Shown: positions 1-32,509 of the stretch, in pieces | Position numbering within the stretch: position 1 is the first letter of the stretch | Layout of the letters: each line of letters starts with the position of its first letter | Origin: Closterium sp. NIES-65 | Taxonomy: Eukaryota; Streptophyta; Zygnematophyceae; Desmidiales; Closteriaceae | NCBI GenBank assembly: GCA_948144175.1 | Contig: CANXME010002665.1 | Span: 62,001-126,000, forward strand | DNA length: 64,000 nt | Reading direction: 5' to 3' | The notes under the pieces: model-generated | The model's database searches: none | Told to the model about the DNA's origin: nothing | Seen by the model: the letters and a program-made list of their open reading frames with translations, nothing else | Translations under genes and position numbers: made by a program

Positions 1-95
1 GAGGAAGGCTCTCTTGATCAGGTCGACGGGCACAGACTTCCACGCCCGTGAAATCCACTTGAGCACCACCCCCGGAGGTGGTTTCTTGATGTTCC
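1..95 (-). CDS. transposase C-terminal exon (partial at window edge)
   Basis: Minus-strand exon after a likely 93-bp intron (96-188). The translation contains VLKWISRAW followed by a VDLIKRAF-like stretch, which is the tail typical of pogo/Tigger transposases, where W-[IV]-x2-AW precedes a basic helix. The acceptor AG at 97-96 restores the phase left by the donor at 188. The exon runs past position 1, so the protein end is not visible. Confidence 0.6.
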
Positions 96-188
96 CTCCA
101 TCACACAATTTGGGGAGGGGAAAACATGAGTGCATCAACAGGCATACAAGCACACGATTTGGAGACGGTAGGACATGTCGCCACTCAC

Positions 189-521
189 CTGCCGGGGTCA
201 GGATGTTCATGCCGTCCTCCTCAAACCAATTCTGGTACTGCTGACGAATGCTTGCTTTGAAGCTCTTGTTGATCGACACATCGAGCGGCTGCAGGTCTGC
301 CGTGCATCTCGCAGGGATGATTGCAGGCACGATGTTGAGCGCTGCGAATCTCGCCTTCACTTCGGGTGTTAGGTGACCGCGGTAGGAGTCAAGCACCAGC
401 ATGGCGCTACGACTCTGCAGGCCGAATTTTGGCTTCAGGAACGGCACCACACCCGCATCGAGCCACTCGATGATGCCCGCGGCCTCCATCCACCCGTTCG
501 CTTGGCAGCCGACCACAGCAT
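189..521 (-). CDS. transposase exon, DDE domain second and third Asp
   Basis: About 111 codons open on the minus strand. It carries NGWMEA, then MLVLDSYRGHLT (second catalytic Asp, with the R-G-H typical of this group), then LQPLDVSINKSFK (third catalytic Asp in the LQPLD motif). This is the DDE_1 endonuclease core of pogo/Tigger elements. It ends at a strong donor (GTGAGT, read on the minus strand from 188). The upstream junction at 522 follows a branch-like CTAAC and a pyrimidine-rich tract ending in CAG. All key residues are present, in contrast to the damaged DNA-binding exon. Confidence 0.75.
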
Positions 522-564
522 CTGCACGCAGGAGAACGACAGGTTAGAACGACTCTGGTTCAAC

Positions 565-852: not shown

Positions 853-868
853 CTGCGCACATGGAGGG

Positions 869-1010
869 TGTCAGTAGATCTGCACTGTGGATGCCCGATT
901 GATCCTACGGGGGGTTACAGGCGCGTTTGCCTGGGGGGTTATGGGCGCACTCTGACCCGCTACTTAACAAGCCCTTTTATCCCAATGGTCTAGTGGTTGG
1001 GATTCTGAGA
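869..1010 (+). repeat. TRIM array LTR1
   Basis: 142 bp, starts TGTCAG and ends CTGAGA. It is followed directly by a primer-site variant (TGGTATCCAGAGC). Identical by eye to LTR4 at 1519-1660. Confidence 0.85.
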
Positions 1011-1050
1011 TGGTATCCAGAGCGAAGGTCTCGGGTTCGAATCCCGGTGT
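984..1050 (+). promoter_or_regulatory. tRNA-like box A/box B pair across an LTR/primer-site junction
   Basis: A box A-like TGGTCTAGTGG in the last 25 bp of LTR1 and a perfect box B-like GGTTCGAATCC in the internal region are about 40 bp apart, the spacing of a tRNA internal promoter. D- and T-arm-like pairings can be drawn, but the acceptor ends do not pair, so this is not a tRNA gene. The same arrangement recurs after LTR2 (about 1194-1257) and, altered, after LTR3. Pol III activity is an inference. Confidence 0.55.
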
Positions 1051-1080
1051 ATGCACTTCGGGCATCCCAGTGCGGGGGGG

Positions 1081-1219
1081 TGTCAGAGGTCTACTGGTGA
1101 TCCCCGATCGATCCTAGGGAAGGGTTACAGGCACATTTGCCTGGGGGGTTATGGGCGCACTGACCCGCTACTGAAACAAGCCCTTTTATCCCAATGGTCT
1201 AGTGGTTGGGATTCTGAGA
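1081..1219 (+). repeat. TRIM array LTR2 (inner)
   Basis: 139 bp, starts TGTCAGAGG and ends CTGAGA. It differs from the outer pair in the first 45 bp and is closer to the single TRIM copy at 22229. Confidence 0.8.
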
Positions 1220-1288
1220 TGGTATCAGAGCGATGGTCTCGGGTTCGAATCCTGGTGTATGCACTTCGGGCATCCCAGTGCGGGGGGG

Positions 1289-1425
1289 TGTCAGAGGTCC
1301 ACTGGTGATCCCCGATTGATCCTAGGGAAGGGTTACAGACATGTTGGTCTGGGGGGTTATGGGCGCACTGACCCGCTACTTAACAAGCCCTTTTATCCCA
1401 GTGGTTAGTGACTGGGATTCTGACA
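1289..1425 (+). repeat. TRIM array LTR3 (inner)
   Basis: 137 bp, starts TGTCAGAGG and ends CTGACA. It is the most diverged of the four, with changes in its box A-like part. The internal region after it (93 bp) has an extra segment rather than the usual 69-70 bp. Confidence 0.8.
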
Positions 1426-1518
1426 TGGTGTCAGAGTGGTCTCGGGTTCGAATCCCGGTGTATGCACATGTAGGCCGTTGCCGCTGTGCTCAGTCCTGGG
1501 CCTCCCAGTGTGGGGGGG

Positions 1519-1660
1519 TGTCAGTAGATCTGCACTGTGGATGCCCGATTGATCCTACGGGGGGTTACAGGCGCGTTTGCCTGGGGGGTTATGGGCGCAC
1601 TCTGACCCGCTACTTAACAAGCCCTTTTATCCCAATGGTCTAGTGGTTGGGATTCTGAGA
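1519..1660 (+). repeat. TRIM array LTR4
   Basis: 142 bp, identical by eye to LTR1. It is followed by the second copy of the GAGGG target duplication at 1661-1665. Confidence 0.85.
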
Positions 1661-1769
1661 GAGGGAAGGACACATAGGGAGCCGGATTAGTATCGCGCAC
1701 ATGAGACATGCAACAAAGAAAAAATCAATCTCGGGATTCATCGAAATCAACGGTAAAAAAATCACTTAC

Positions 1770-3136: not shown

Positions 3137-3619
3137 TGTGCGGTGGGAAACCGAACCGCAGGTGTTTCTGCCTCAAAACCATGCATGATCCCACTTGGTG
3201 CATGGTCGGTTGAGTTCGCCTTATTGAGAGCTTCACTTTGGTATGTTCAAAAGTGAATTTCATTTTGTCTCTTATACAAGCGCATGCGCTTATAAATCTG
3301 ACTCAATTATAAGTGCACCCTCCCAAAAAACACTGTTTTATTATAAGCGCAAGTGCGCTTATATCCGGTAACAGCTGGAGGTTACACGAAGGTAAAAAAT
3401 CAACGACCTTTGACTCGACGAAATACAGCGCGACAGCAAGAACAAACAACTGACTCGGTATTGAGCAGTTGCCCGAGTCGTCACTGTATCGAACCGCAAC
3501 ACCAAAACAATTAGCTGCACCTTTTCATATTCCTTGTAATCATATAAAAAACCTTTGTATTGCCTTGGTATAATCAATCTCTTGCTCTGACACACTAGTG
3601 CAAGTTGGTTCAACAAGTT
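3137..3619. other. non-coding stretch with palindromes; possible old LTR at its right
   Basis: No convincing gene. It is AT-richer than its surroundings. It holds a perfect 14-bp palindrome at 3278-3291 (AAGCGCATGCGCTT) and a hairpin with 9-bp arms at 3342-3350/3355-3363 that repeats the same core. The right part (about 3366-3619) is continuous, through the AAGTT duplication of element A, with 12490-12577, which ends just before a primer-site-like motif. It is therefore probably the start of an LTR of an older element (L). Confidence 0.4.
3278..3363. repeat. two related palindromes
   Basis: A perfect 14-bp palindrome at 3278-3291 and a 9-bp-arm hairpin at 3342-3363 share the core AAGCGCA/TGCGCTTATA. 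They could be a decayed transposon end or part of an old LTR. Confidence 0.5.
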
Positions 3620-3745
3620 TGTCAAACTCATATGCTATAGTCTATGTAGGCTGTAGTGGGGTAAACAATATGGGGTACAACATTTCTAGGTTTTCCTACT
3701 TGTACCCACCTTCTTGCTAGTTCATTCATTCCTCATTTCTTCACA
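3620..3745 (+). repeat. 5' LTR of copia A
   Basis: 126 bp, TGTCAAAC to CTTCACA, preceded by AAGTT and followed by TGGTATAAAGC, a variant of the iMet primer site. Confidence 0.9.
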
Positions 3746-4878
3746 TGGTATAAAGCAGGTTCCCTAGTGGGAACGCTTCTCAGGGTCCACCACTGAAATC
3801 GACTCTTTTTTTCTAACCGGAGCGCGAGTCGCTCCTGCCCGAGGCGCGACCCGTGGGCCGCCCTTCTGTCGAGCCCTCCTAGAGGCCCCTCTCACGGCCC
3901 CTCGCGCCACCCTTAGCGGCCCCGTCGCCACCCCTAGCGGCCCCGTCGCCGCCCTTCTAGGCCCCTCGAGGCCCCTTCGCGACCCCGTCGCCGCCCCTAG
4001 CGGCCCCGTCGCCGCCCCTCGCGGCCCCGTCGCCGCCCCTCGCGGCCCCGTCGCCGCCCCTACCGGCCCCGACGCCGCCCCTACGCGGCCCTGTCGCCGC
4101 CCCCAGCGGCCCCGTCGCCGCCCCTAGCGGCCCCGTCGCCGCCCCTCGCGGCCCCGTCGCCGCCCTTCTAGGCACCTCGAGGCCCCTCTTCGCGGCCCCG
4201 TCGCCGCCCCTAGTGGCCCCGTCGCCGCCCCTCGCGGCCCCGTCGCCGCCCCTCGCGGCCCCATCGCCGCCCCTACCGGCCCCGTCGCCGCCCCTACGCG
4301 GCCCCGTCGCCGCCCCTACCGGCCTCGTCGCCGCCCCTACACAGCCCCGTCGGCGCCCCCAGCGGCCCCGTCGCCGCCCCTAGCGGCCCCGTCGCCGCCC
4401 CTCGCGGCCCCGTCGCCGCCCTTAGCGGCCCCGTCGCCGCACCTTGCGGCCCCGTCGCCCCCCCTTTCGGCCCCTCCCTGGCCCCTTCACAGCCGAGCCG
4501 CCGAGCCGCCAAGTAGCCCAACAGCCGAACCGCCGAGCTGCCCAGCAGCCGAGCCGCCGAACCGCCGAGCCGCCGAGCCGCCCAGCAGCCGAGCCGCCGA
4601 GCAGCCGAGCCGCCGAACCGCCGAGCCGCCCAGCAACCGAGCCGCCGAGCCGCCGAGCAGCCGAGCCGCCGAGCCGCCCAGCAGCCGAGCCGCCGGGCCG
4701 CCCAGCAGCCGAGCCGCCGAGCCGCCCAGCAGCCGAGCCGCTGAGGCCGCCGTCGAGCCGCCATTACCGAGCCACTGCCGGGCCGCTACTACCGCGGTTG
4801 CCGACTTGTTCCTTCCGGCGCGCCCCGACCCTACCCACCCGGCCTGGTGAGAGCACTCCCTGCTAGACCACTGCTGTC
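3746..4878 (+). repeat. leader of copia A with two GC-rich tandem repeat blocks
   Basis: After the primer site lies a hairpin (GTTCCC at 3759-3764 pairing with GGGAAC at 3769-3774). From about 3890 to 4480 runs a degenerate repeat of about 21 bp built on GGCCCCGTCGCCGCCCCT. From 4490 to 4750 runs a shorter repeat built on GCCGAGCCGCC. No gene is evident; open frames here are products of the repeats. Confidence 0.75.
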
Positions 4879-6330
4879 ATGTCTACCCCCAGTGTCCTTA
4901 CCTTTGATGCTGAGGGTCGTGCTGTTGACTTCGAGGTCTGGGTAGATGACCTACTGCTCTTCCTATAGTGCGATAGGGCAGACGGACTCTCTCAGTTTGA
5001 TCTCACCTCTAGTGCCTCTCCTGCCCCGCCTGCTGATGCTGACAGCACTGTTCGCTCACAGTGGGCCACCCGCGATGCTGCTGCCCGTCTTGCTGTGTGT
5101 CGCCACTTACCAACCACTGAGCGTGCGCACTTTAGTCAGTACAAGAGTGCTAAGACCTTGTACGACGCTGTAGTTGCACGCTACTCTTCCCCTGCCACTC
5201 CTGCACTTAGCCGCCTCATGCTGCCGTACCTGTTTCCTGACCTCGCAGCCTTTCCCACTGTCGCTAACCTCATTACGCACCTTCGCACTAGTGACACCCG
5301 CTACCGAGCTGCGCTTCCTGCTGAGTTCTGCGCCAAGAACCCCCCCCCCCCATGTACATAACCCTCTACTACATAGTCACCCGGCTCCCTGACTCCCTTC
5401 GCTCGATAAGGGACCACTTCCTCTCTGTTTGCCCCACCACACTCACCGTTGACCTACTCGAGGAGCGCCTCCTGGCAGCTGAGAAGAATATAGTTGCTGT
5501 AGGAGCCTCTCGTGGTGACCCTCGTGCCCCCTTCTTTGAGGGGTGCTCCACCTCCCCCCCTTGCCCTTTGTTGCCTCTGCTGCTGCCGTCAACCTCGTTG
5601 GCTTCGAGTCGGTTGGAGCTGCGTCTGCCCCTAGCGGGAGACGCCGCACCGGCAATGGCAAGGGGGGCAAGGGCGCTGGAGGGGCTGGTGGGGGCGCTGG
5701 AGGTGGCGGTGGAGGCAGTGGAGGGGGTGGGGGTGGTGGTGGGAGTGGTGGAGGCGGAGGAGGCGGCGGCGGTGGCGGTGGGAGCGGCGGCGGCGGAGGT
5801 GGCAGAGGAGGCGGCGGCAGCGGTGGAGCTGGTCGCGGCTCTGCGCAGAGGAGTGGCTCAGGTGGTGGTCCACGCCAGCTTCAACAGCGCACCCGTGAGA
5901 CCCCGTCCCCCCAGCAGCTTCGTGAGTGGTACGCTGCACGTCAGCGAGGTGGGGGTACTGGTCCCTGTACCTTCGTCCTCTGTACCGGCGACCGCGCTGG
6001 TGAGCAGTGCGGGGGCTCGCACTCCACCCAGCGCTGCTTCGGCCGCCTGACGGACGCTTGGCATCATCAGTTCCTTGACGCCACTGAGATCCCTCGCTGG
6101 GGAGAGCTGTCTAGGGCGGGGGTTGCTATCTTTGATCTTGATTATGATGCTATTCTTGCTGCCATTTATGTTGTGTCTAATAGTGATGAGGGTGACTATT
6201 ACCTGTGCGTTCCGCCGAAACCGGGCATTGAGGCTGCTGCTCTAGGTGCTGGTGAGGCTGCTGCTCTAGGTGCTAGTGCGTCTGCTGCCCCAGGTGCTGG
6301 TGAGTCTGCTCTCTCAGGTACCACGTCGGC
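4879..6330 (+). pseudogene. gag: gag of copia A
   Basis: Starts at an ATG whose product begins like the other copies (S/A-T-P-S-V-L-T-F-D, then a W-x-D-D-L-x-L-F motif). A glycine-rich tract is encoded at about 5650-5840, and a Cys/His motif of form C-x13-C-x3-H-x4-C at about 5966-6040. Gag forms the virus-like particle shell and binds the element RNA. The region is broken. Confidence 0.75.
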
Positions 6331-7760
6331 TCAGGCCTTACACACCTTCACCCTTGACTCGGTTGCTTCCCGCCCCTTCTTTCGAGACCGCACCACGCTT
6401 ACGCCGCTTAGCCGGCCGGTTGCGGTCTCCCTGGCGGACCCCTCCGGGGGTCTTGTCCTTGCTCGCTTCTCCACTATCTTGCCGTGTCTCGCAGCCCCCT
6501 GTGGCACCCTGTCAAGTCTCTACCTCCCCTCGTTCTCTACGGACTTGGTGAGTGGTGCTGACCTAGAGGATGGGGGGGTTGACCAGTTCACTCCTGCGGG
6601 TCAGCGGGTGACCCACTATACGTCTGCTCGGACGGGCCGACACTTGGTCACGTTTACTCGTCGGCAGGGGTCGAGCCTGTACACACTGACTACTGAGTCT
6701 CCTCCGGTTGCTGAGTCTGGTCAGGTAGCTGCGTCGAGTCAGGTGTTTGCTGCAGCGTCCAGGTCTGGTCCTGAGTCTGCTCCCTGCTCGTGTCATCTCC
6801 TGTCCCACCAGACTCTCCTCTTGCACCACCGCCTTGGTCACCCCTCCCTGCCTCGTCTACGAGGTATGGCCTCCCGTGTCGTTGTCTCTGGTCTCCCCCA
6901 GTCCCTCCCTCCCCTCCCTTCGGGGCCTTCCCCTACCTGCGTTCCCTGCGTCGAGGGGCGGCAGCGCGCCGCCCCTCACTCCTCCCAGTTTCCTCCGACA
7001 GAGGCCCCGCTGCAGACTCTTCACATGGACGTTTGGGACCCCGCCCGCGTTTGTGGCCAGGGTCACGAGCGTTAATTCCTGTTGGTGGTTGACGACTACT
7101 CACATTACACAACGGTGTTCCCCTTGCGCAGCAAGGGTGACGTCATTAGGGTGTTGATCGATTGGATCCGCGCAGCTTGTCTCCAGCTCAGAGAGAGTTC
7201 TGACTCGGACTTTCCTGTTCTGCGTCTGCACTCTGACAGAGGCGGGGAGTTTTCCTCTACCCATCTAGGAGCCTTCTGTCGTGCACAGGGCATCCGCCAG
7301 ACCTTCACGCTTCCAGCCTCTCCACATTAAAATGGGATTGCTGAGCGCCGCATTGGCATGGTCATGGACGTCGCTCGTACGTCCATGATCCATGCGGCTG
7401 CTCCCCATTTTCTGTGGCCGTTTGCGGTTCAGTACGCAGCGCATCAGCTCAACCTTCAGCCCCGGGTCTCCTTGCCAGAGACCTCCCCCACCTTACGGTG
7501 GACGGGAAAGGTTGGTGATGCGTCAGCGTTTCGTGTCTGGGGATCTCGGGCGTTTGTCCGCGACTTGTCTGTGAACAAGCTGTCCCCCCGTGCTGTTCCC
7601 TGCGTCTTCCTTGGCTTCCTTCCTGATGCGCCTGGTTGGCAGTTTTACCACCCCACCTCGCGCCGTGTTCTGTCCTCCTAGGACGTCACCTTTGACGAGT
7701 CGGTGCCTTACTACCGTCTCTTCCCAAACCGCACTGCGCCCCTCCCCTCGCCGCCGCTCT
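6331..7760 (+). pseudogene. pol: protease and integrase of copia A
   Basis: A protease motif region near 6350 (FTLDS; the D-S-G-A consensus is not intact) is followed by the integrase zinc region (H-x-R-L-G-H near 6830, C-V-P-C-V-E-G near 6940) and core motifs: HMDVW near 7025, VVDDYSHYTTVFPL near 7085 and HSDRGGEF near 7230. Protease cuts the polyprotein; integrase joins the cDNA to the chromosome. Broken. Confidence 0.75.
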
Positions 7761-7779
7761 TCCTTGCGCCAAGTCCTCC

Positions 7780-8620
7780 CCCGGTAGACCCCCTCCCCCC
7801 TCAGGGTCCTGCCCCATCAGGTGTGTCCCAGGTAGACGCAGTCGAGCCTGTCGAGGTCGCTGTTGACTTTGGTGCTGTTAGGGGTGCTGAGCCTGCAGGT
7901 GCCAGGTCTGGGGGTACTGAGCCTGGGAGTGCGGAACCTGGGGGTGCTGAGTCTGGGGGTACTAAGCCTAGGGGTGCGGAGCCTGGGGATTTTGAGTCTA
8001 GGGGTACTTAGCCTGGGGGTGCGGAGCCTGGGGGTGCTGAGCCAGGGGGTACGGAGCCTGGGGGTGCGGAGCCTGAGGGTGTTAGGTCTGCTCGTGTGGC
8101 CTCTGGCGGTGCTTCGTCGAGGTGAGAGCTACCCTTTCCGTAGGAGCTGCGGGAGTGGTTTAACCAGCGCTGGAGCCGTGCTGCTGGAGCTGGAGGAGCT
8201 ACTGTTACTACTGGCCCTGGAGGTGCTCGGACTGGTTGTACTGGAGCTGCTGGGACTGGGGGGTGCTGCTGGGGCTACTGGAGTTGGTCCTGTTGGAGGT
8301 ACTGCTGGAGCTACTGGCGGCACTGGAGCTGACGGTCCTGCTAGAGGTGCTGGAGCTGCTGGAGTTGGAGCGGCTGGGGGTGTTGGCGCTGGAGGTGCTG
8401 CTGGCGCTGGTGCTTTTGAGGGTGCTGGAGTTGGCGCCGTTGGAGCTGGAGGTGCTGCTGGCGCTGGTTCTGCCGCTGGGGGTGCTGGTGCTTTTCCTAC
8501 TGGTTCTGGAGGCACTGCGCGGCCGCGGCCGTACTTCGTTCCGCTCCTTGAGCAGGTTCTTGGTCTCCCGCCCTCTACTGGTCCTGCTCCTCCCTTAGAG
8601 TGTCCACAGCCTGTCCAGTC
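7780..8620 (+). repeat. low-complexity linker between integrase and RT, copia A
   Basis: 15-bp repeats at about 7870-8095 (sense-strand core GGTGCTGAGCCTGGG, encoding G-A-E-P-G) are followed at 8190-8520 by a looser repeat of CTGGAGCTGCTG type encoding Gly/Ala-rich sequence. The same two blocks recur in every copia copy of this window. Confidence 0.75.
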
Positions 8621-10462
8621 GCGGTCACAGTTCTAGCCAGCCTCCCCCTTACCTGCTCCTTCTCCCTACACTGGTCCTACTAGAGGTCCTACTGGAGGTC
8701 GTTAGCCTGCGTCTCGTCCTGCGTCGCCTGTTCGTGCTGCTCGCACTAGTAGTCGTGCTCCGCGTCCGCGTCCTCCTGCCGTCCCAGGCACACACCAGAT
8801 GGTACTGCGTCTTTCCACTGCTCCTCTGCGTGTCCCGTTGCCGTCTCCTCCAGAGTCCTCTCTTCCTATCCTTGCTGACCGGGAGTCTGACTCTCTTCGT
8901 GCTGCCAGTCCTACTGTCACGCGTCTCCTGGCTACTATTGTCACTGACCCTTCCTTTGAGTCCACAGTTGCGTCTTCCTTGGTTGCTGAGCTTGTCGACT
9001 TTGCTGCTCGCTGTCGTCTTGACTACGCCCCTAGTCTTGTTGCTGAGTCTGAGTCTGTCTGTCCTCCGTCCGTTGGGGGTGGGTGTGCTCTTTGCACGGA
9101 CGTCCTTGAGGACAGGCAGGAGGAGTTCCAGTGTTTTGCTGCTGCTTTGCCTCATCTCGTGTCTACGCTGATTGCCCCTGAGGGAGACTCGGATGCACCA
9201 GACATCCCGACTCCTTGATCGTACGCTGAGGCGATCGAGGGTCCCTACTCCTCACAGTGGTAGTCAGCCACGGACGTAGAGATGGCTTCCTCGAAGTCCA
9301 CAGGCACCTACGTCGACGTGGTTCCCCCACCTGAGGCGAACATCGTCAGTGGCATGTGGATTTTCAGGGTGAAGCGGCTGCCGGGTTCTCCGCCTGTCTT
9401 CAAGGCGCGTTACGTGGCTCGAGGCTTCAGTCAGCGGCAGGGAGTTGACTACTTTCAGACCTTCTCCCCCACCCCGTAGATGACCACTCTCTGGGTGCTG
9501 CTGCACATAGCCGCTCAGCGCGACTACGAGCTTCACTCTCTTGACTTTAGCACAGCTTTCCTGCAGGGCAGCCTGCACGAGGAGATCTGGCTGCGCCGCC
9601 CACCTGGCTTCACTGGGTCGTTTCCTCCTGGTACCCGGTGGAGCCTCCGGCGGCCAGTCTACGGTCTCCGCCAGGCGCCCCGTGAGTGGCACGACACACT
9701 GAGGACTACACTTGCGGCTCTTGGGTTTGCTCCTTCTACTGCCGACCCGTCGCTGTTTCTGCGCACCGACACCTCTTTGCCGCCGTTCTACATCCTCGTG
9801 TACGTCGACGACTTGGTCTTTGCCACTGCTGACACTGCTGGACTCGCCCACGTGAAGTCCGAGCTGCAGAAGAGACACACGTGCACTGACCTGGGTGAAC
9901 TGCGCAGCTACCTTGGCTTGCAGATCACCCGGGACAGAGCACATCGCACCATTACCCTGACTCAGTCACACATGGTGCAGCAGGTCCTTCAGCGCTTCGA
10001 CTTCACGTACTCCTCGCCTCAGGCCACTCCTCTGTCTACTCGCCACTCGCTCTCAGCTCTGCCTTTGGATGAGTCTGTAGAGCCGAGTGGCCCGTACCCA
10101 GAGCTTGTTGGCTGCCTCATGTACCTGATGACCTGCACACGACCTGACCTAGCATACCCTCTTAGCATCTTGGCACGCTATGTTGCTCCTGGGAGACACC
10201 GACCAGAGCACATGGCTGCAGCGAAGAGGGTGTTGCGCTACTTGTGCAGTACGTCGGGCATGGGGCTAGTGCTTGGAGGGCGACGTCCAGTGGTCTTCAC
10301 AGGTCACGCAGACGCTTCTTGGGCTGACGACCAGGCTACGCAGCGGTCGTCACAGGGTTACACCTTCAGCCTTGGCTCCGGCTCTGTTTCGTGGCGGTCT
10401 CCCCGCTCGTCTTCTGTTCTCGGCTCCAGCTGTGAGGCTGAGATCTACGCGGGGGCCATGGC

Positions 10463-10597
10463 TGAGAAGATTAGAACGAGAATGGAGAGGGGAGATTGCA
10501 CTAGCAAGAATGGGGATACAAATAGCAAACCCTAGAAGGGTTGTACTCGCTATAGAGCACCCCACTACAGGCTAGAGCATAAGATAACATTCTGACA
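10463..10597 (-). repeat. 3' LTR of element B
   Basis: 135 bp. Read on the minus strand it starts TGTCAGAATG. It shares the TACAACCCTTCTAGGGTTTG-type core with the 11913-11997 copy. Confidence 0.8.
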
Positions 10598-11612
10598 CCC
10601 CCCCATAGCCAAAGTGGGGTGTAATCAGCAGAGCAAGCAAAGCTGTACAAGCTCAGGGTGGATCACAATGTCACCACACATTCTGAGCACACGTTCAAGA
10701 AGCAATACTTTAAAGGGTACAATTATGAGCAAAGCTAGTGGTAGTCACAACGGGCAAGCGAGGAGGAGGAGAGAGAGTGAGAGGAGAGGAGATAGGAGGC
10801 GACGGCTGAAGCTGCAGACACACGGGCAACAGGAGGCAGACTGGCACAGCGGCTACCGGACGAAGTCCGCGGAATACAGGAGTAACAGGCCCCGCGGCTA
10901 AAGTAGCGGCAGACGAGCAACGGACCCACGGGCGGCTGGCACAGCTGGCTACGACCGGGCTACCGGACGAAGTCCCCGGAATACAGGTGCTGCTGGCGAC
11001 ACGACGGCAACCTCCATACAGCTTCCCCAAACTATCCCACTCCCCCTGGCACACACCCGCTGCTACACCGCTAGCTCCACTCCCACGCACCCCCCTTAAA
11101 CCCTAAACCCCAGTCTCCCACACATCCACCCCCCTCAGCGACAGCTGCAGCAGTGGGAGACAAAGGAGGAGGAGGAGCAAAGGGAGGAATGCAGAAGTGC
11201 CACCCCCATACTCGCCACCCCCTACTCGCCACTACCCAAACCCTAACACAGGCAGGGCGGGATGGCGGGTAGGGAGATTACGGGGGAAGGGGGGGGGGGG
11301 GGAACCGACGCGCGGCCTCCCAGGGCGCCAAGACAGGCAATAGAAGGGGCGGCGCTCGCCCCCCTCCCCCAGGTAAGTCCTTGACAGGCGACGGGAAAAG
11401 GGGCTGCAGGCGGGGCCGGGGCCGGGGCGCAGGTAGGGCGATGGGGCCGGGGCGCAGGTAGGGCGTCGGGGCCGGGGCCGCAGGCGGGGCCGGGGCCGGG
11501 GCGCAGGTAGGGCGACGGGGCCGAGGCGCGTGCCCTCGGTGCGCCGCGACGGGTCCCCGTCGCCCGTCGCGGCGCCTCCAGAGGGCGACGCGGCGAACGA
11601 CGGGGCAGAAGC

Positions 11613-11792
11613 CCGCCGCGCGCCTCGGGGCGCACAGCGGGCAGAGAACCGCCGCGCGCCTCGGGGCGCACAGCTGGCAGAAAACCGCCGCGCGCCTCTG
11701 GGTGCACGGCGGGCAGAAAACCGCCGCGCGCCTCGGGGCGCACGGCGGGCAGAAAACCGCCGCGCGCCTCGGGGCGCACGGCGGGAAGAAAA
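11613..11792 (+). repeat. 36-bp tandem repeat, five copies, in element B
   Basis: Five head-to-tail 36-bp units, each with the core CCGCCGCGCGCCTCGGGGCG and ending in a purine-rich AGAAAA-type stretch. Units differ at a few bases. The open frames across it are produced by the repeat. Confidence 0.85.
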
Positions 11793-11912
11793 AGTGCCGC
11801 ACGCCAGGGGGCGTGCGGCTCAGAGAGTAGTGAAAGGTAGTTGCAGCGGAAGCGAGGAGGTGGTAACCCACCCACAGGATCGATCCAAGGGGATCGACCT
11901 GCTCTGATAGCA

Positions 11913-11997
11913 TGTGAAAGTTTAGAAGAAAGAAGAGGGATTGCACTAGCAAGAATGGGGATACAAATAGCAAACCCTAGAAGGGTTGTACTCGCTA
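11913..11997 (-). repeat. 5' LTR of element B, partial
   Basis: About 85 bp matching the inner part of the 10463-10597 LTR. It adjoins the primer site at 11901-11912. Confidence 0.75.
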
Positions 11998-12340
11998 CTT
12001 CCTTGCTCGTGAGCTGCAGCAGCGTGGTCAGCTCCGCCTCACCTACGTGGCCTCTGAGGCCAACACTGCTGATATCTTTACCAAGGCCCTTCCGCCTTGT
12101 GATCATCAGCGCTTCTGTGCTATGCTAGGTCTTGTGCCTACTTGGCCTCACTTGCTCACTTCTTGACCTTGCTTGTACTATGATCTTTCTATACCTGCAC
12201 TTGCTTGTTTACTTTTATATATGATCTTGCATGTGAACTGGCCTTGTGGCCTTGCTTTAGTGCTCGGACGGTGTGGTGACGTTGTGATCCACCCTGAGCT
12301 TGCTTTGCTTTGCTTGACTGGTCTTGTGACCTCTTGTTCT

Positions 12341-12361
12341 CCCCCACTTTGCCTATGGGGG
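12341..12361 (+). promoter_or_regulatory. polypurine-tract hairpin of copia A
   Basis: CCCCCA and TGGGGG pair around a 9-nt loop (CTTTGCCTA); the G-run arm is the polypurine tract two bases before the LTR. The same stem and loop occur in C, D, E, F and K. Confidence 0.6.
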
Positions 12362-12363
12362 TG

Positions 12364-12489
12364 TGTCAAACTCATATGCTATAGTCTGTGTAGGCTGTAG
12401 TGGGGTAGACAATATGGGGTACAACATTTCTAGGTTTTCCTACTTGTACCCACCTTCTTGCTAGTTCATTCATTCCTCATTTCTTCACA
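12364..12489 (+). repeat. 3' LTR of copia A
   Basis: 126 bp, preceded two bases upstream by the polypurine hairpin at 12341-12361 and followed by AAGTT. Confidence 0.9.
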
Positions 12490-12825
12490 AAGTTCACTAA
12501 GAACGCTTCCGCAACTAGAACATTCCTACTCAGGGTCTTAGCCCTGAAAAAATCTAAGGGCTTTTCTCAGCCGAACATGGTATGAGAGCTCACAAGGCAA
12601 GATCCAACTCGATTAACACTCCTACAACAACCGAAGGCATGGCAACATAGAAGGACAGAAGCTCTTCTAACGGCTCTCTCGGCACTACACCTACTCCACC
12701 TCCAGCCTCTGGCCTACAGACAGAGGGAGGTACAGCGACAAGACCAGCAGCTGAGATCGCCGTCCTGAGATGGGGCCTCATTCGGCCCCATCCGAAGTTC
12801 CCCCAGCAACGTGGCACGAAACACA
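12490..12825 (+). other. remnant of older LTR element L: LTR end, primer site, leader
   Basis: Continuous with 3619 once A is removed. TGGTATGAGAGC at 12578-12589 resembles an iMet primer site and would mark the LTR end at 12577. The rest would be leader and gag start; no confident domain is visible. It is interrupted at 12825 by element K. Confidence 0.4.
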
Positions 12826-12957
12826 TGAGAAGAAGTGAACGAGAATGAATGAACTATGAATGAAGTGAGTACAAATATGAAACCCTAATTGGGTTGTACC
12901 CCCTATGGGATACCCCACTATAGCCTACACAACAGCATAAGCTATAATGTTCTGACA
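12826..12957 (-). repeat. 3' LTR of copia K
   Basis: 132 bp, flanked on the left by ACACA. The polypurine hairpin at 12960-12980 adjoins its inner edge. Confidence 0.9.
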
Positions 12958-13169
12958 CACCCCCATAGGCAAAGTGGGGGAGAACAAGGGGTCACAAGAC
13001 CAGTCAAGCAAAGCAAAGCAAAGCTCAGGGTGGATCACAAAGTCACCACACATTCCGAGCACAAGTTCAAAGGCCAAAAGGCCAGTTCACATGCAAGATC
13101 ACATATAGAGATATACAAGAGTCAAGCAAGCAAGAGCAAGAGTATATATAGGTGAAGGTACAAGCAAGG

Positions 13170-15305
13170 TCAAGAGGAGAGCAAGTGAGGCAAGACAGGC
13201 ACAAGACCCAGCTGCGTGCAGCAACGCTGATGATCACAGGGCGCAAGTGCCTTGGTGAAGACATCAGCAGTGTTGGCCTCAGAGGCCACGTACGCAAGTC
13301 GCAACTGTCCACGCTGCTGCAGCTCACGAGCAAGAAAGTAGCGGAGAGCAATGTGCTTTGTCCTGTGCTCCAGTCGCTGCTCTCGACACAAGGCCAGCAT
13401 GGCCTTGTTGTCTACGTACAGGACTGGAGGAGAACGCGGCGGCTCTCCAAGGTCGGTCAGCAGGTAGGTGAGCCAGCAAAGCTCCTGGGCAGCCATAGAC
13501 CCCGCGTAGATCTCAGCCTCACAACTTGAGCCGAGAACAGAAGACGAGCGGGTAGCCCGCCACGAAACAGAGCCAGAACCAAGGCTGAAGGTGTAACCCT
13601 GTGACGACCGCTGCGTAGCCTGGTCGTCAGCCCAAGAAGCGTCCGCGTGCCCAGTGAGGACCACTGGACTGCGCCCTCCAAGCACTAGCCCCATGCCCGA
13701 CGTACTGCACAAGTAACGCAACACCCTCTTCGCTGCAGCCATGTGCTCTGGTCGGTGTCTCCCAGGAGCAACATAGCGTGCGAGAATGCTAAGAGGGTAT
13801 GCAAGGTCAGGTCGTGTGCAGGTCATCAGGTACATGAGGCAGCCAACAAGCTCTGCATACGGGCCACTCGACTCTACGGACTCATCCGAAGGCAGAGCTG
13901 AGAGCGAGTGGCGAGTAGGCAGAGGAGTGGCCTGAGGCGAGGAGTACGTGAAGCCGAAGCGCTGAAGGACCTGCTGCACCATGTGTGACTGAGTCAAGGT
14001 GATGGTGCGCCGTGCTCTGTCCCGGGTGATCTGCAGGCCAAGGTAGCTACGCAGTTCACCCAGGTCTGTGCACGTGTGTCTCTTCTGCAGCTCGGACTTC
14101 ACGTAGGCGAGTCCAGCAATGTCAGCTGTGGCAAAGACCAAGTCGTCGACGTACACGAGGATGTAGAACGGCGGCAGAGAGGTGTCGGTGCGCAGAAACA
14201 GCGACGGGTCGGCAGTAGAAGGAGCAAACCCAAGTGCCGCCAGCGTAGTCCTCAGTGTGTCGTGCCACTCACGTGGCGCCTGGCGGAGACCGTAGACTGG
14301 ACGCCAGAGACTCCACTGGGTACCAGGAGGGAAAGACCCAGTGAAGCCAGGTGGGCGACGCAGCCAGATCTCCTCGTGCAGGCTGCCCTGCAAGAAAGCA
14401 GTGCTGAAGTCGAGAGAGTGCAGCTCGTAGTCACGGTGAGCAGCAACGTGCAGCAGTACCCGAAGAGTGGTCATCTTCGGGGTGGGGGAGAAGGTCTGAA
14501 AGTAGTCAACTCCCTGCCTCTGACTGAAGCCACGAGCCACGTAACGCGCCTTGAAGACAGGCGGAGAACCCGGCGGCCGCTTCACCCTGAAGATCCACAT
14601 GCCACTGACTATGTTCGCCCCAGGAGGGGGAACAGCGTCAACGTAGGTGCCTGTGGACTTCCAGGAAGCCATCTCTGCATCCATAGCTGCCTGCCACTGA
14701 GAGGAGTAGGGACCCTCTATCGCCTCCGCGTAAGAGCGCGGAGTCGGGATGTCTAGTGCATCCGGGTCTCCCTTAGGGGCTAGCAGTACAGACGCGAGAT
14801 GAGGTGAAGCGGCGACCAGACACTGGAACTCCTCCTGCCTGTCCTCAAGTACGTCCGTGCCAAGGGCACACTCACCCCCGACGGACGGAGGACAGACAGG
14901 CTCAGACTCAGCGACAAGACTAGCAGCGTAGTCTAGACGACAGCGCGCGGCAAAGTCGACGAGCTCAGTGACAAGGGCAGATGCAGCAGAAGACTCGAAA
15001 GAAGGGTCAGTGACAGCAGTAGCAAGGAGACGCGTGACAGTAGGACCGGCAGCACGAAGAGAGTCCGACTCCGGGTCGGCAAGAGCAGGAATAGAGGAAG
15101 CAGGAGGAGAAGGCAAAAGGGCACGCAGAGGAGCAGTAGACGGACGCAGAGACATCCGGTGCGTGCCAGGGACAGGAGGAGGACGCTGACGCGAACCGCG
15201 ACCACTAGTGCGCGCAGTACGAACAGGCGACGCAGGACGAGACGCAGGCTCACGACGCTCAGTAAGACCTCCAGTCGGACCAGCGTAGGGAGAAGGAGCA
15301 GGCAA
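13170..15305 (-). CDS. pol: RT and RNase H part of copia K pol
   Basis: A long open minus-strand region. RT begins near 14680 (KSTGTYVDAV, SGMWIFRVKR), the catalytic YVDD codons lie at about 14144-14155, and RNase H motifs follow (GHADASWADD near 13650, SCEAEIYAG near 13520, YVDNKAMLAL near 13410). It ends with HLLSS at 13170. Together they convert element RNA to cDNA. All visible catalytic motifs are in place. The short 3' untranslated part 12981-13169 includes the GATCCACCCTGAG-type block shared with the other copias. Confidence 0.8.
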   Translation of the reverse strand: MPAPSPYAGPTGGLTERREPASRPASPVRTARTSGRGSRQRPPPVPGTHRMSLRPSTAPLRALLPSPPASSIPALADPESDSLRAAGPTVTRLLATAVTDPSFESSAASALVTELVDFAARCRLDYAASLVAESEPVCPPSVGGECALGTDVLEDRQEEFQCLVAASPHLASVLLAPKGDPDALDIPTPRSYAEAIEGPYSSQWQAAMDAEMASWKSTGTYVDAVPPPGANIVSGMWIFRVKRPPGSPPVFKARYVARGFSQRQGVDYFQTFSPTPKMTTLRVLLHVAAHRDYELHSLDFSTAFLQGSLHEEIWLRRPPGFTGSFPPGTQWSLWRPVYGLRQAPREWHDTLRTTLAALGFAPSTADPSLFLRTDTSLPPFYILVYVDDLVFATADIAGLAYVKSELQKRHTCTDLGELRSYLGLQITRDRARRTITLTQSHMVQQVLQRFGFTYSSPQATPLPTRHSLSALPSDESVESSGPYAELVGCLMYLMTCTRPDLAYPLSILARYVAPGRHRPEHMAAAKRVLRYLCSTSGMGLVLGGRSPVVLTGHADASWADDQATQRSSQGYTFSLGSGSVSWRATRSSSVLGSSCEAEIYAGSMAAQELCWLTYLLTDLGEPPRSPPVLYVDNKAMLALCREQRLEHRTKHIALRYFLARELQQRGQLRLAYVASEANTADVFTKALAPCDHQRCCTQLGLVPVLPHLLSS

Positions 15306-15479
15306 AGGGGAGGCAGGCTGTAGCTGTGACTGGATAGGCTGTGGACCCTCTAAGGGAGGAGGAGGAGGACCAGGGGAAGGTGTAAGACCAAGAACCTGCT
15401 GCAGGAGCGGAACGAAGTACAGTCGGGGCCGCGCGGGGACTCCAGAAACAGCAGGGAAAGCACCAGTACCCCCAGCAGG

Positions 15480-16110
15480 AGTATTCGCTCCAGCAGCACC
15501 TCCAGGAGCACCTCTAGTAGCTCCAGAACCCCCAGCAGCACCTCCTGAAGCCCCAGAACCCCCAGCAGCACCAGGAGCACTGCCAGCCGGACCGCCAGCG
15601 GTAGTCTCAGCGCCAACACCCTCAGCAGTACCAGCTCAAGAAGAGCCCTCAGGCCTAGCAACTCGAGTACCCCAAGTACGAGCACCTCCGGGACGCGCGG
15701 CAGCAGTACCCTCTGCAGTCGAAGAACCTCCAGCACCAGCAGCACGCCTCCAGCGCCGGGTAAACCACTCACGCAGCTCCTGTGGGGAGAGTGGCTCTCG
15801 GCGAGATGAAGCACCTCCAGGCGGAGAACCTCCAGGCGAAGAACCTCCAGGCTCAGCACCCTCAGGCAAAGCACCTCCATGCAGAGCGACCCCAGGCACA
15901 GCACCCCCAGGCTCAGCACCCCCAGGCTCAGCACCCCCAGGCTCAGCACCCCCAGGCTGAGCACCCCCAGACTCAGTACCCCCTGGCTCAGCACCCCTAG
16001 GCTCAGTACCCCCAGGCTCAGCACCCTCAGACTCCGCACCCCTAGTCTCAGCACCCCCAGGCTTAGCACCTCCAGTCCCAGCACCCCCAGGCTCAGCTCC
16101 CGCAGCAGCA
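15480..16110 (-). repeat. low-complexity linker repeats of copia K
   Basis: 15-bp units encoding G-A-E-P-G (about 15850-16100) and Gly/Ala-rich repeats (about 15480-15640) between the integrase and RT parts. Confidence 0.7.
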
Positions 16111-16249
16111 CCAGAGTCACCAGTGACCTCGACAGGCTCAACCGCGTCTACCTGGGACACACCTGAAGGGGCAGGACCCTGAGGGGGGAGGGGGTCTACC
16201 GGGGGGGGACCTGGTACCAAGAAGAGCGGGGGCGGGGGGAGGGACGGAG

Positions 16250-17700
16250 TGCGGTAGGGGAAGAGGCGGTAGTAGGGTACCGACTCGTCGAACGTGACAT
16301 CCTGGGAGGACAGAACACGTCGAGAGGTGGGGTGGTAGAACTGCCACCCAGGGGCGTCGTGGGGGAACCCCAGGAAGACGCAGGGAGCAGCGCGAGGGGA
16401 CAGCTTGTCCGCAGACAAGTTGCGGACAAACGCCCGAGATCCCCAGACTCGGAACGCCGACGCATCGCCAACCTTCCCCGTCCACAGCAGGGCTGGGGAG
16501 GTCTCCGGCCTAGAGACCCTGGGGTGGAGGTTGATCTGATGCGCCGCGTACCTGACCGCAAACGGCCACAGAAAATGGGGGGCAGCCGCATGCATCATAG
16601 ACGTACGAGCGACGTCCATGACCATGCCAATGCGGCGCTCTGCAATCCCATTTTGCTGCGGTGAGTCCGGAAGCGTGAAGGTCTGGCGGATGCCTCGCGC
16701 ACGACAGTAGGCACGCAGAAGGCCAGAGGAGAACTCTCCGCCTCTGTCCGAGTGCAGACGCAACACAGGAAAGTCCGAGCCAAAGCTCTGCCTGAGCTGG
16801 AGACGAGCTGCGCGGATCCAGTCGATCAGCACCTCAGTGACATCACCCTTGCTGCGCAAGGGGAAGACCGTGGTGTAACGCGAGTAGTCGTCAACCACCA
16901 ACAGGAAGTAGCGCTTGTGACCGAGTCCACAGACGCGGGCAGGGCCCCACACGTCCATGTGAAGCGTCTGCAACGGAGCCTCTGTCGGAGGAAACTGGGA
17001 GGAGTGAGGGGCAGCACGCTGGCGCCCCTCGACACAGGGGACACAGGCAGGGCCAGGGCCCTGAGGAAGGGGAGGGAGGGACCGGGGGAGACCAGACACA
17101 AGAAGACGGGAGGCCATGCCTCTGAGCCGAAGCAGAGAGGGGTGGCCAAGGCGGTGGTGCCAGAGGAGGGTCTCGTGAGACAGACGGCAACACGAACAGG
17201 GGGCAGACTCAGGACCAGACCTGGACGCTGCAGCAAACACCTGACCAGACGAAGAGACTCTACCAGACTCAGCACCGGGAGGAGAAGCAGTGGTCAGTGT
17301 GTACACGCTCGACCCCGGCTGACGTGTAAACGTAGCCAGGTGGCGACCTGTGCTAGCCTCTGTGCAGTGTGTCACCCGCTGACGAGCTGGAGTGAACTGG
17401 TGGACACCCGCATCCTGTAGGTCAGCACCACTCACCAGATTCGTAGAGAATGAGGGGAGGTAGAGACCAGACAGGGTGCCAGAGGGAGCCGCCGGACACG
17501 GGAGGACTGTGGAGAAACGAGACAGGACAGGACCCCCAGAGGGGTCAGCCAGGGACACCGCAACCGGCCGACTAAGCGGCATGAGAGTGGTGCAGTCCCG
17601 AAAGAAGGAGCGAGACGCCCCAGAGTCAAGGGTGAAGGTGTGAGAGGCCGAAGCCGACACAGTACATGAGAGTGCAGACTCACCAGTACCTGAGAGCATT
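16250..17700 (-). CDS. pol: protease and integrase part of copia K pol
   Basis: In minus-strand order: FTLDSGASRSFF (protease D-S-G-A) near 17620, integrase zinc residues (H-H-R-L-G-H near 17145, C-V-P-C near 17040), HMDVWGPARV near 16950, VVDDYSRYTTVFPL near 16890, HSDRGGEFSS near 16745 and QQNGIAERR near 16655. The D, D and E of the integrase core are all visible. The region lies in one open frame with the front half of the linker. Confidence 0.8.
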
Positions 17701-18660
17701 GACGCACTGGCACCTAGAGCAGGAGCCTCACTGGCACCTGACGCAGCAGTACCAATGCCCGGGTCGGGCGGGAAACACCGGTAACAGTCACCCTCATCAC
17801 TAACAGTCACAGCATACATGGCTGCAAGGATAGCATCAAAGTCAAGATCAAAGATAGCTACACCAGCCCTAGACAGCTCTCCCCAGCGCGGGATCTCAGA
17901 GGCCTCCGGAACCTGCTGGCGCCAAGCGTCGGTCAGGCGGGCAAAGCAGCGGCGGGCGGTGTGGGTGCCCCCACACCGCTCACCCGCACGGTCGCTGGTG
18001 CGAAGGACGTAGGTGCAGGGACCGAACGCCCCACCACGCTGACGCTGCAAGTACCACTCACGGAGCTGCTGAGGGGCGGGGACGTCGCGAGAGCGCTGCT
18101 GCTGCTGCTGGCGCTGACCACCCCTAGTGCTGCTCCGCTGGGACGAGCCACTCCGACCACCTCCACCACCGCCACCCCCGCCTCCGCCGCCACCGGTGCC
18201 ACCGCCACCCTCTCCCCCGCCGCTCCCACCGCCACCTCTACCGCCACCTCCGCCGCCACCTCCGCCTCCACTGCCGCCACTAGTACCTCCACCCCCGCCC
18301 CCACCTCCACCGCCACCCCCACTCCCCCCGCCGCCCCCACCTCCTCCGCCACCGCCCCCGCTAGCTCCACCCGCTCCCTTGCCCCCCTTGCCCTTGCCAG
18401 AGAGGCGCCTACCGCTGGGGGCAGACGCCGCACCGACCGACTCTAGACCAACGAGGTCGGCCGCAGCAGCAGAGGCGACAGAGGGTAGCAGGGGGGAAGG
18501 AGAACACCCCTCAAAGATGGGGGTGCGGGGGTCACCACGAGAGGCCCCTACAGCGACTATGCTCTTCTCGGCCGCTAGCAGGGACTTCTCGAGGAGGTCG
18601 ACAGTGAGGGTGGTGGGACAGACAGAGAGAAACTGGTCCCTAACAGCGCGGCGGGCAGGC
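17701..18660 (-). pseudogene. gag: gag remainder of copia K
   Basis: Only the rear half of gag is recognisable: the LTVDLLEKSL/AAEKS region near 18560-18610, a glycine-rich tract (18150-18370) and the C-x13-C-x3-H-x4-C motif (about 17950-18025). The usual N-terminal block starting M-A-T-P-S-V is not found in this copy. The element therefore looks incomplete at gag. Confidence 0.65.
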
Positions 18661-18791
18661 GGCGCGCGGGCGGCGCTCAGGCTCTAGGGGCCGTTAGGGC
18701 AGATCGAAAAAAAAAGGAAGAGAAAGGGCCCGGAGGACGCTCCGGGCAGAAAAAAAAAGTTACGAGGTAGTGGTGGTGGGCCCTAAGCACA

Positions 18792-18807
18792 GTTCCCACA
18801 AGGGAAC
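18792..18807 (-). promoter_or_regulatory. primer-site-adjacent hairpin of copia K
   Basis: GTTCCC and GGGAAC pair around a 4-nt loop, just downstream of the primer site in element orientation. It matches the hairpins at 3759-3774 (A), 36514-36529 (E), 45050-45065 (F) and 56001-56016 (I). Confidence 0.55.
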
Positions 18808-18821
18808 CTGCTCTGATACCA

Positions 18822-18953
18822 TGAAAAGAAGTGAACGAGAATGAATGAACTATGAATGAAGTGAGTACAAATATGAAACCCTAATTGGGTTGTACCCCCT
18901 ATGGGATACCCCACTATAGCCTACACAACAGCATAAGCTATAATGTTCTGACA
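18822..18953 (-). repeat. 5' LTR of copia K
   Basis: 132 bp, next to the primer site at 18810-18821 and flanked on the right by ACACA. Confidence 0.9.
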
Positions 18954-19940: not shown

Positions 19941-21152
19941 TCAAAGCTGGGTGGCGTGAGATACAACCTGCTTGACAAGATAGTCATTGAGAGCACGGCG
20001 TGCGTTGCCCATATCAGCTTCTACAACCCAACTGTCCTCAGTGGGGTCGTATCCCTTCCAGCGTATCAGGAACTCGAGGGTCTTGCCGCCGCCACGTCGA
20101 TGAGAGAGAACGCGCTCCACTTCATACTCAGGTTCATTCGGGATGAGATCATGTGGTGGTGGCGGTAGCTGCTGTCCCTGGAACTGTTGGTTGGGGTCTT
20201 TGTAGGGTTTAAGTAGATGGATACGGAAAGCGTTGTGAAGCTTCCATGTATCCGGTAAGCGCAAGCGGAATGTAACTGGTGTCACCTGAGCCTCAATGAG
20301 AAAAGGACCACAAAAGCGAGGCCGGAGTTTTGATGGTAGGTGAGAAAGGTTCAAGTTGCGCGTGTGAAGAAGCACCTGATCTCCGACTGCTACGGAGTGA
20401 TCTCGTTGCTGACGATCGGCATACTGCTTCTGAGAAATCTGCATCGTGGTGAGACGTCGCTGAGTATTCTCCCATAGCTGCTGCATGGTGGTGACGAAGT
20501 CATGTGCGGCTTGGACATGTGCCGTTGTGGTTGGCTGCTGTGGGGTGAGTGGTTCCCGTCCGTAGCACAAAATGAAAGGAGTTTTCCCTGTGGCCGCATG
20601 TGACGCGTTGTTGTAAGCGAACTCGAGGGTTGGTATCTGTGTGTCCCAGTGGCTAACGTCGTCTTTGCAAGCTGTGCGTAGTAAGTGTTCAGCCACCTGA
20701 TTGAGTCGCTCTGTCTGTCCGTCAGTCTGGGGGTGGTACGCTGAAGACATCTCAAGCTTTGTCCCCGACACACCCATGAGTTCCCTTCAGAACTTGCTAG
20801 TAAACATAGGGTCTCTGTCTGAGATGAGTGTAGCGGGGATGCCGTGGATGGTGATGATGAGGTCGAAGAAGAGGCGAGCAGTTGCTTCAGCTGTAGCTGT
20901 GGCGTTGGTCGGGATGAAGTGACCCATTTTGGAGAACTTATCGATCATTCCGAGGATGGAATCATGCCCCCGTGGGGTCGAAGGAAGTCCTGTGATGAAG
21001 TCGAGGCTAACGACTTGCCATAGAAGCTCCATGTCTTGCTGGATGCCTGCTACATGTCCGGGGCGGCTCAATGCGTCTGCCTTGTTGTGTAGCCCGGGTT
21101 TGTAGACGATGTCGTAGTGGAAGTGAGTTTCCAAGAAGTCCATCCATCGCAC
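19941..21152 (-). pseudogene. pol: integrase and chromodomain of gypsy G0
   Basis: The integrase core shows HPQTDGQTERLNQ near 20700-20740 and SLDFITGLP near 20990. The C-terminal chromodomain at about 19965-20145 has VERVLSHRR, a Y/F-L-I-R-W-K-G-Y core and D-S-W-V-V-E. In chromoviruses this domain steers insertion toward marked chromatin. The region is largely readable with few breaks. Confidence 0.8.
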
Positions 21153-22204
21153 CAGTTGTCGTCAGAGCGTCGGCTGAGACTTCAGGTAATTGAGAGTGCA
21201 GTGGTCAGTATAGACCGTGGTCTTGGCTCCCTCTAGGTAACACCCCCACGCCTTGAAGGCTACAACTATAGCTAAGGCTTCCTTGTCGTGGATGGGGTAG
21301 TTCAGTTCTGCTCCATGTAGCTTTTTACTGACATAGGCGATAGCCTATAAACCGTTCCCGTGATCCTGCATCAGTACTGCTCCGACTGCCTGGTCACAAG
21401 CGTCTGCTTCCACTACGTAGTCCTTGTCTGGGTCCGGTAGGATGAGTACTAGCGCTGTAGTCAGTGGTGTCTGTAGCTGCTCCATGGCTTGCTGATGAGG
21501 AGTATCCCAATTGTATGGCATATCCTTCTTCAGTAGGTCGGTCAGTGGCGCTGCTATCTTAGCGTACTGTGGCATGAACCTGTTGTAGTAGTTGGCGAAG
21601 CCTAGGAACTGCTGTAACTCCTTCACGTTCTCCGATACTTTCCACTTCTTGACGGCTTCGATCTTCCGCGGGTCCACGTGTACGCCCTCGGCACTCACCA
21701 TGTGACAGAGAAACTGCACCTTTTTCGGGGCGAAGTCGCTTGACAGCTTCACGTAGAATTTGTCTTTCCGCACGATCTCGAACACCTTCCGTAGATGCTC
21801 CACATGCTCCTTCATGTTCTTGGAGTAGATAAGAATGTCGTCCAGGTACACCACTACGCACTCGTCTAGCAGGGGTCGTAAGATGTGATTCATCCCCGCC
21901 TGAAACGTTGCTGGTGCATTGCAGAGTCTGAACGGCATCACCAAGTATTCGTAGGAGCCGTATCTTGTACGGAATGCCATATTGTGGATCGAGTTGTCTG
22001 CCATCTTGATCTGCCAAACCCGACCGTAGGTCCAGCTTCGAGAATACTGTTGCTCTACGCAGTTGATCCAGTAAGTCGTCTATGCGCGGTATGGGATATA
22101 TGTTTTTGACAGTCTGTTTGTTCAGTGCACCGTAGTTGATGCACATCCGTAAACTGCCGTCTGGTTTTGGAGTGAAGAGAACTGGTGCACCGTAGGGAGA
22201 GGTT
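21153..22204 (-). pseudogene. pol: RT and RNase H of gypsy G0
   Basis: RT motifs in minus-strand order: [11 protein letters not shown] near 22140, FSKLDLRSG near 22035, then [12 protein letters not shown] with the catalytic YLDD codons at 21837-21848, and [14 protein letters not shown] near 21600. RNase H follows (VEADACDQAVGAVLMQ near 21380). This is the gypsy order, with the RT just downstream of protease. Broken. Confidence 0.75.
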
Positions 22205-22228
22205 GATGGTCGGATCAGTTGTCTGTCC

Positions 22229-22367
22229 TGTCAGAGGTCCACTGGTGATCCCCGATTGATCCTAGGGAAGGGTTACAGGCACGGTTGCCTGGGGGGTTAT
22301 GGGCGCACTGACCCGCTACTTAAACAAGCCCTTTTATCCCAATGGTCTAGTGGTTGGGATTCTGACA
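22229..22367 (+). repeat. 5' LTR of the single TRIM copy
   Basis: 139 bp; TGTCAGA at the start and TCTGACA at the end form a 7-bp terminal inverted repeat. It contains the box A-like TGGTCTAGTGG near its end. Confidence 0.9.
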
Positions 22368-22402
22368 TGGTATCAGAGCGAAGGTCTCCGGTTCGAATCC
22401 CG
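22343..22402 (+). promoter_or_regulatory. tRNA-like box A/box B region of the TRIM copy
   Basis: Box A-like TGGTCTAGTGG at 22343-22353 lies in the LTR; box B-like GGTTCGAATCC at 22390-22400 lies after the primer site. TCTGA (LTR end) and TCAGA (inside the primer site) can pair as an anticodon-like stem with a 7-nt loop. The acceptor ends do not pair. Confidence 0.55.
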
Positions 22403-22436
22403 GTGTATGCACTTCGGGCATCCCAGTGCGGGGGGG

Positions 22437-22575: not shown

Positions 22576-22579
22576 TGTC

Positions 22580-29200: not shown

Positions 29201-29269
29201 TGGTAGACCCCCTTCCTCCTCAGGGTGCCGCTCCCTCAGGTGTCTCTCAGGTAGACCCGGTTGAGCCTG

Positions 29270-32507: not shown

Positions 32508-32509
32508 TG

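Follow-up and report, generated by a model that had tools for sequence, protein, structure and literature searches.

Several retrotransposon groups are known to carry more than two long terminal repeats (LTRs) within one insertion, and different mechanisms have been proposed for them. Tandemly arrayed terminal-repeat retrotransposons in miniature (TA-TRIMs) are common in plants, with 129 subfamilies reported from 35 out of 43 genomes, including maize examples with three and five LTRs, each with a target site duplication (TSD) (Gao et al. 2016, PMC4717578). For insertions with a TSD, outer LTRs that resemble each other and a further LTR inside, Sabot and Schulman (2007, PMC1950507) argued for one cycle of reverse transcription with template switching, and in Cassandra elements, whose transcripts span two to five units, template switching is named as one route (Kalendar et al. 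2020, PMC7215508). Rice tandem LTR retrotransposons share inner LTRs within one TSD, and insertion as a tandem versus recombination in place is left open in their description (Morales-Diaz et al. 2025, PMC11899658). The Wukong elements of maize include five with four LTRs; most multi-LTR copies have TSDs while others have none, and their authors favour recombination. Helenus elements are TRIMs with a tRNA-like sequence in the LTR, reported from one plant species, Selaginella moellendorffii, and tandem arrays are noted for the zebrafish family LTR-11_DR (Kojima 2024, PMC10886601). Here we describe a four-LTR TRIM array in Closterium sp. NIES-65, within a stretch of 64 kb (contig CANXME010002665.1, positions 62,001 to 126,000) that we call the window and from whose first base all positions are counted. 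A first-pass annotation had proposed that this array inserted as one unit, pointing out that tandem arrays are known in some TRIM families.

The array occupies 869-1660, which is 792 bp of noncoding DNA. Its structure is as the first-pass annotation described it: four LTRs and three short internal regions (INT1 to INT3) stand in a row, one 5-bp duplication (GAGGG) surrounds the whole, the outer LTRs are identical, and the inner LTRs are unlike both the outer ones and each other. The single TSD, the LTR-type outer termini, the identical outer LTRs and the grouping of the inner LTRs with sequence elsewhere in the window together fit the integration of one multimeric cDNA. The best-supported explanation, and in our view a likely one, is that the array entered the site in one integrase-type event as a multimeric product of reverse transcription. 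Its features are as follows, with the sequence type of the outer LTRs called type A.

864-868: 5′ TSD, GAGGG
869-1010, + strand: LTR1, outer, type A, 142 bp, identical to LTR4
975-978, + strand: TTTT in LTR1, the only run of four T there, at the U3/R border; candidate RNA polymerase III (pol III) terminator
986-996, + strand: box A, TGGTCTAGTGG, in the 3′ part of LTR1
1011-1080, + strand: INT1, 70 bp; primer binding site (PBS) with one extra C, box B, polypurine tract (PPT) formed by a run of G
1034-1044, + strand: box B, GGTTCGAATCC, within INT1
1081-1219, + strand: LTR2, inner, monomer-like, 139 bp; TTTT at 1184, box A at 1195
1220-1288, + strand: INT2, 69 bp; exact 12-nt PBS, box B at 1242, PPT
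1289-1425, + strand: LTR3, inner, monomer-like, 137 bp; TTTT at 1391, box A damaged
1426-1518, + strand: INT3, 93 bp, a longer variant; PBS with two mismatches, box B at 1445, PPT
1519-1660, + strand: LTR4, outer, type A, 142 bp; TTTT at 1625, box A at 1636, no box B after it
1661-1665: 3′ TSD, GAGGG

A 5-bp match at these fixed ends has a chance of 0.0012 given the base composition. A search of the window with the array's flanking sequences revealed no other copy (E up to 0.001) and hence no empty site. A nested insertion was rejected, as the units alternate exactly and no second duplication lies between them. A tandem of tRNA-derived short interspersed elements was also set aside, since the ends and TSD appear to match LTR termini and not a tRNA head. 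Beside the array, positions 1-860 are transposase-like (Pfam DDE_1 for 1-543, minus strand), and the array apparently lies just next to or inside this sequence.

The inner LTRs resemble a second insertion. Among the best 40 matches of a blastn comparison of the array with the whole window (E up to 0.01), we found one further family copy, which has a single unit and its own TSD.

22224-22228: 5′ TSD of the monomer, TGTCC
22229-22575, + strand: monomer TRIM of the same family, 347 bp; LTR 22229-22367, internal region 22368-22436, LTR 22437-22575
22576-22580: 3′ TSD of the monomer, TGTCC

Its two LTRs (139 bp each) are mutually identical and its internal region is 69 bp. It sits between pieces of a chromodomain gypsy-type element (open reading frames (ORFs) within 19941-23371, minus strand), whose reverse transcriptase and chromodomain matches exceed the Pfam cut-off and whose protease match falls below it (23.8 bits vs. 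28.2).

The monomer has the makeup of a TRIM, being shorter than 1000 bp with two LTRs, a PBS, a G-run PPT and a TSD. All four internal regions (INT1 to INT3 and that of the monomer) open directly at the LTR end with a PBS of the type TGGTATCAGAGC, which we take to be of the initiator-Met class; it is exact in INT2 and the monomer, carries one extra C in INT1 and has two mismatches in INT3. All four end in GGGGGGG, followed by the TGTCAG of the next LTR, and no stop-to-stop ORF of at least 150 aa, the size class searched, overlaps 869-1660. From its PBS, G-run, 5-bp TSDs and lack of a long ORF, the element is a TRIM in tandem form.

Comparison of the LTRs bears most directly on how the array arose. 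LTR1 and LTR4 are identical at 142/142 positions, while LTR1 differs from LTR2 by 13 substitutions and 7 gap columns and from LTR3 by 17 substitutions and 7 gap columns; between the two inner LTRs there are 12 substitutions and 2 gap columns. Within U3, 15 alignment columns (9 substitutions, 6 gap columns) unite LTR1 and LTR4 against LTR2, LTR3 and the monomer, and one informative column backs a different grouping. In 1999 of 2000 bootstraps the distance of the inner LTRs to the monomer, 21 kb away, is smaller than that to the outer LTRs of the array itself, which makes descent of the inner LTRs from the outer ones at this site very improbable.

These relationships strongly disfavour growth in place by unequal exchange between this insertion's own LTRs. 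There is precedent for such growth: for tandem LTR elements and TRIMs, an element's two LTRs have been suggested to recombine between sister chromatids or homologues (PMC11899658), and the Wukong paper invokes unequal crossing over and recombination between adjacent intact elements. Here, however, the inner LTRs have their closer relative in the monomer, at a different locus, and the outer pair has no differences at all, an outcome with a Poisson probability of ~2e-6 if all LTRs had aged together since one insertion, given the 13 substitutions between LTR1 and LTR2 and assuming equal neutral rates. We therefore regard growth in place as highly improbable. We think it just as improbable that different copies were fused by an assembly error. 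The repeats are short and alike, which would favour such an error, but a perfect TSD and precise LTR ends enclose a mosaic of distinct units, and collapse or stutter would be less likely because all units differ in sequence.

How, then, might a multimeric cDNA have formed? We propose that a Met-tRNA primed the reverse transcription of one RNA, or a set of RNAs, in which three different units were present; Cassandra transcripts of two to five units offer a precedent (PMC7215508). The last template unit would have been of type A, and its U3 would have been copied to both ends, so that a type-A LTR now stands ahead of the monomer-like INT1. Two RNAs are usually packaged, and because there are three different units here, one or more of the templates probably contained two units already. 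In the retroviral-type scheme, the outer U3 derives from the 3′ end of the template and the outer U5 from its 5′ end. A type-A U3 joined to an LTR2-like U5 in the outer LTRs would be expected under this scheme, because the two parts would come from different ends of a mixed multimer. In R-U5, LTR1, LTR2 and LTR4 are identical and the only informative column sets these three against LTR3 and the monomer; LTR2 has the GAGA end of the outer LTRs, yet a monomer-like U3.

One version of this explanation requires no prior genomic multimer: during reverse transcription, the growing strand would jump from R to R among several single-unit RNAs that were packaged together and belonged to different subfamilies, and its product would then integrate once. 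This possibility, counted within the likelihood we give to multimeric cDNA integration, seems doubtful to us. Sabot and Schulman (2007, PMC1950507) invoked such switching to explain insertions that have three LTRs, TSDs and outer LTRs of similar sequence. It would also place the deviant U5 of LTR3, INT3 and the U3 of LTR4 on one RNA. Set against this, three different units would require at least three RNAs, or two rounds, where two is the usual number, although very short RNAs may be packaged in larger number.

Alternatively, a type-A single element may have inserted first and gained monomer-like units by homologous recombination, whether with linear or circular cDNA or by ectopic conversion, keeping its outer LTRs and TSD. 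Recombination into an existing element can leave a single TSD and identical outer LTRs around inner LTRs of foreign origin, and integrase-independent integration into preexisting elements has been reported in yeast (as cited in PMC11899658). However, two LTRs' worth of units would have to be added together with the third variant, INT3, and a further exchange would be needed for LTR2, with its outer-type end and its monomer-like U3. Nor is any type-A stretch apparent in INT1, which differs from the monomer internal region by one substitution and one gap. We consider this origin unlikely.

Integration of a multimeric cDNA is itself opposed by several observations. The U5 evidence for reverse transcription of a mixed multimer is weak, as it comes from one column in a part of the LTR that is conserved in any case (LTR1 and the monomer differ at one position in R-U5). 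The extra C in the INT1 PBS is unhelpful for priming at the first PBS, and the outer LTRs end in GA, not CA; both count mildly against smooth retrotransposition, and the TSD suggests that integration of GA-type ends did take place. Pattern searches outside the window brought no further copy: two LTR patterns had no match each in viral contigs, and one LTR pattern had one 19-base match in bacterial and archaeal contigs, in a metagenome-assembled genome of Neomarinimicrobiota. We take this match as chance, because blastn of the array against the 8-kb locus returned just those 19 bases and short background. Finally, tandem, single and solo forms of one rice locus are on record, so the number of units at a site can change (PMC11899658).

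The first-pass annotation's proposal that the array moved as a multimer holds in part. A single integration fits the TSD, the termini and the LTR groupings; that the array was already multimeric when transcribed is something we infer, and the observed pattern alone does not separate transcription of an existing multimer from template switching or from recombination into a type-A insertion, which could look alike. The annotation overstated its case in calling the pattern unusually clear evidence, as a TSD, an internal LTR and similar outer LTRs are the published diagnostic pattern (PMC1950507). This kind of structure is already known. The less expected feature, which the annotation leaves unmentioned along with the monomer near 22 kb, is a candidate tRNA-type promoter split over the LTR edge.

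Five of the six LTRs carry a box A (TGGTCTAGTGG) in their 3′ portion: LTR1, LTR2, LTR4 and the two LTRs of the monomer. Counting both strands, the window contains four copies of box B (GGTTCGAATCC); each of the four internal regions has one, and no LTR has any. The consensus used for both motifs is that of tRNA-type promoters. Three of the four boxes B have a box A 35-65 nt upstream, with a start-to-start spacing of 47-48 nt (spans 986-1044, 1195-1252 and 22343-22400), and the PBS and the border between LTR and internal region lie between the two boxes. In 60 order-1 Markov simulations of the window, we obtained 8 boxes B in total and no box A-box B pair, compared with the 4 and 3 observed, copies that are related by descent and so not independent in this comparison. 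Every LTR (6/6) has a single TTTT, just ahead of the site of box A, and the two elements contain no other.

Likeness to a whole tRNA is slight, which weighs against this arrangement as a promoter. ARAGORN found no tRNA in the window, and Rfam gave no match there at the gathering score. With E up to 10, five weak Rfam matches fall in 860-1670; two are to tRNA, at ~15 bits against a gathering score of 29 bits, and they are not the top ones among these chance-level matches, the best being to a plastid untranslated-region family on the other strand (17.8 bits). None of the five is to 5S rRNA. Given the weak covariance score, the boxes would be at most the promoter remnant of a tRNA.

If the promoter works, pol III would probably transcribe the element under the direction of the LTR's box A and the internal region's box B. 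Each transcript would begin near the TTTT of one LTR and end at the TTTT of the following one, and would thus hold a single unit (~208 nt) and have a very short R. Because every LTR has such a TTTT, transcription would normally stop after one unit, and multimeric RNAs would need read-through. We tentatively suggest that the pol III promoter becomes complete only where an LTR adjoins an internal region, and that leaky TTTT termination yields multi-unit RNAs that move as heritable multimers of several subfamilies, a scheme we think somewhat less likely to be right than wrong. Only copies with an internal region could then start transcription, and a solo or terminal LTR could not. Such a layout, if working, would be one for pol III-driven TRIMs not encountered in the literature examined, in which solo LTRs lack a complete promoter; a limited literature search found no description of a promoter divided by the LTR border, which is not proof of absence.

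Copia elements like those in the window are the likely source of the array's enzymes, because other LTR pairs in the window share TGTCA starts and a Met-type PBS with it. Judged by eye, the window's ORF list consists mostly of copia-type frames, and the only one put to Pfam (29668-32277) matched RVT_2. At least one LTR starts with TGTCA in four of the five other LTR pairs examined: the pair 51747/53287 has this start in just one of its two copies, and a simple search did not see it in the pair 37880/45079. In the four TGTCA pairs, an exact or altered Met-type PBS comes next and the 3′ LTRs are preceded by TATGGGGGTG; one element among the other pairs carries the exact TGGTATCAGAGC.

Three of the neighbouring elements (3617-12489, 12824-18953 and 25290-32641) have very short LTRs (~130 bp) with a TGTCA start and copia-like frames inside. 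A pair of copia-like LTRs at 51747-53420, separated by only ~1.5 kb and accompanied by a PBS-like site, may mark another nonautonomous element. Positions 3895-4762 and 56103-57092 are GC-rich, internally repeated (self-matches) and open in several frames.

Compared with known systems, the array shares different features with each. The complexes attributed to template switching have an internal LTR, several cores, a flanking 5-bp TSD and highly similar outer LTRs, all of which are present here; as described, they are large (candidates >10 kb) and have three LTRs, whereas the Closterium array is 792 bp, noncoding and has four. The rice tandems selected for description hold protein-coding regions, in contrast to this element. 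For the promoter, Helenus is the closest kind, and box A, box B, PBS, PPT and a 5-bp TSD (in fungi and plants) are common to both; in this comparison, made by description and not by sequence, the Helenus boxes lie within the LTR, while here box B lies beyond the PBS. Cassandra has the same PBS, TGGTATCAGAGC, and forms tandem arrays, and has a pol III promoter where the Closterium element has a candidate one; the Cassandra promoter is derived from 5S rRNA and sits inside the LTR, and no 5S rRNA match is among those listed here. TA-TRIMs alternate LTRs and internal regions as this array does, and the passages describing them mention no tRNA-type promoter, unlike the situation here (PMC4717578). 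The array further differs from TA-TRIMs in that its outer and inner LTRs come from different subfamilies. An array of this composition offers a concrete test between tandem insertion and growth in place: had it been inserted as a tandem, the U3 and the U5 of its outer LTRs would be expected to derive from different template ends.
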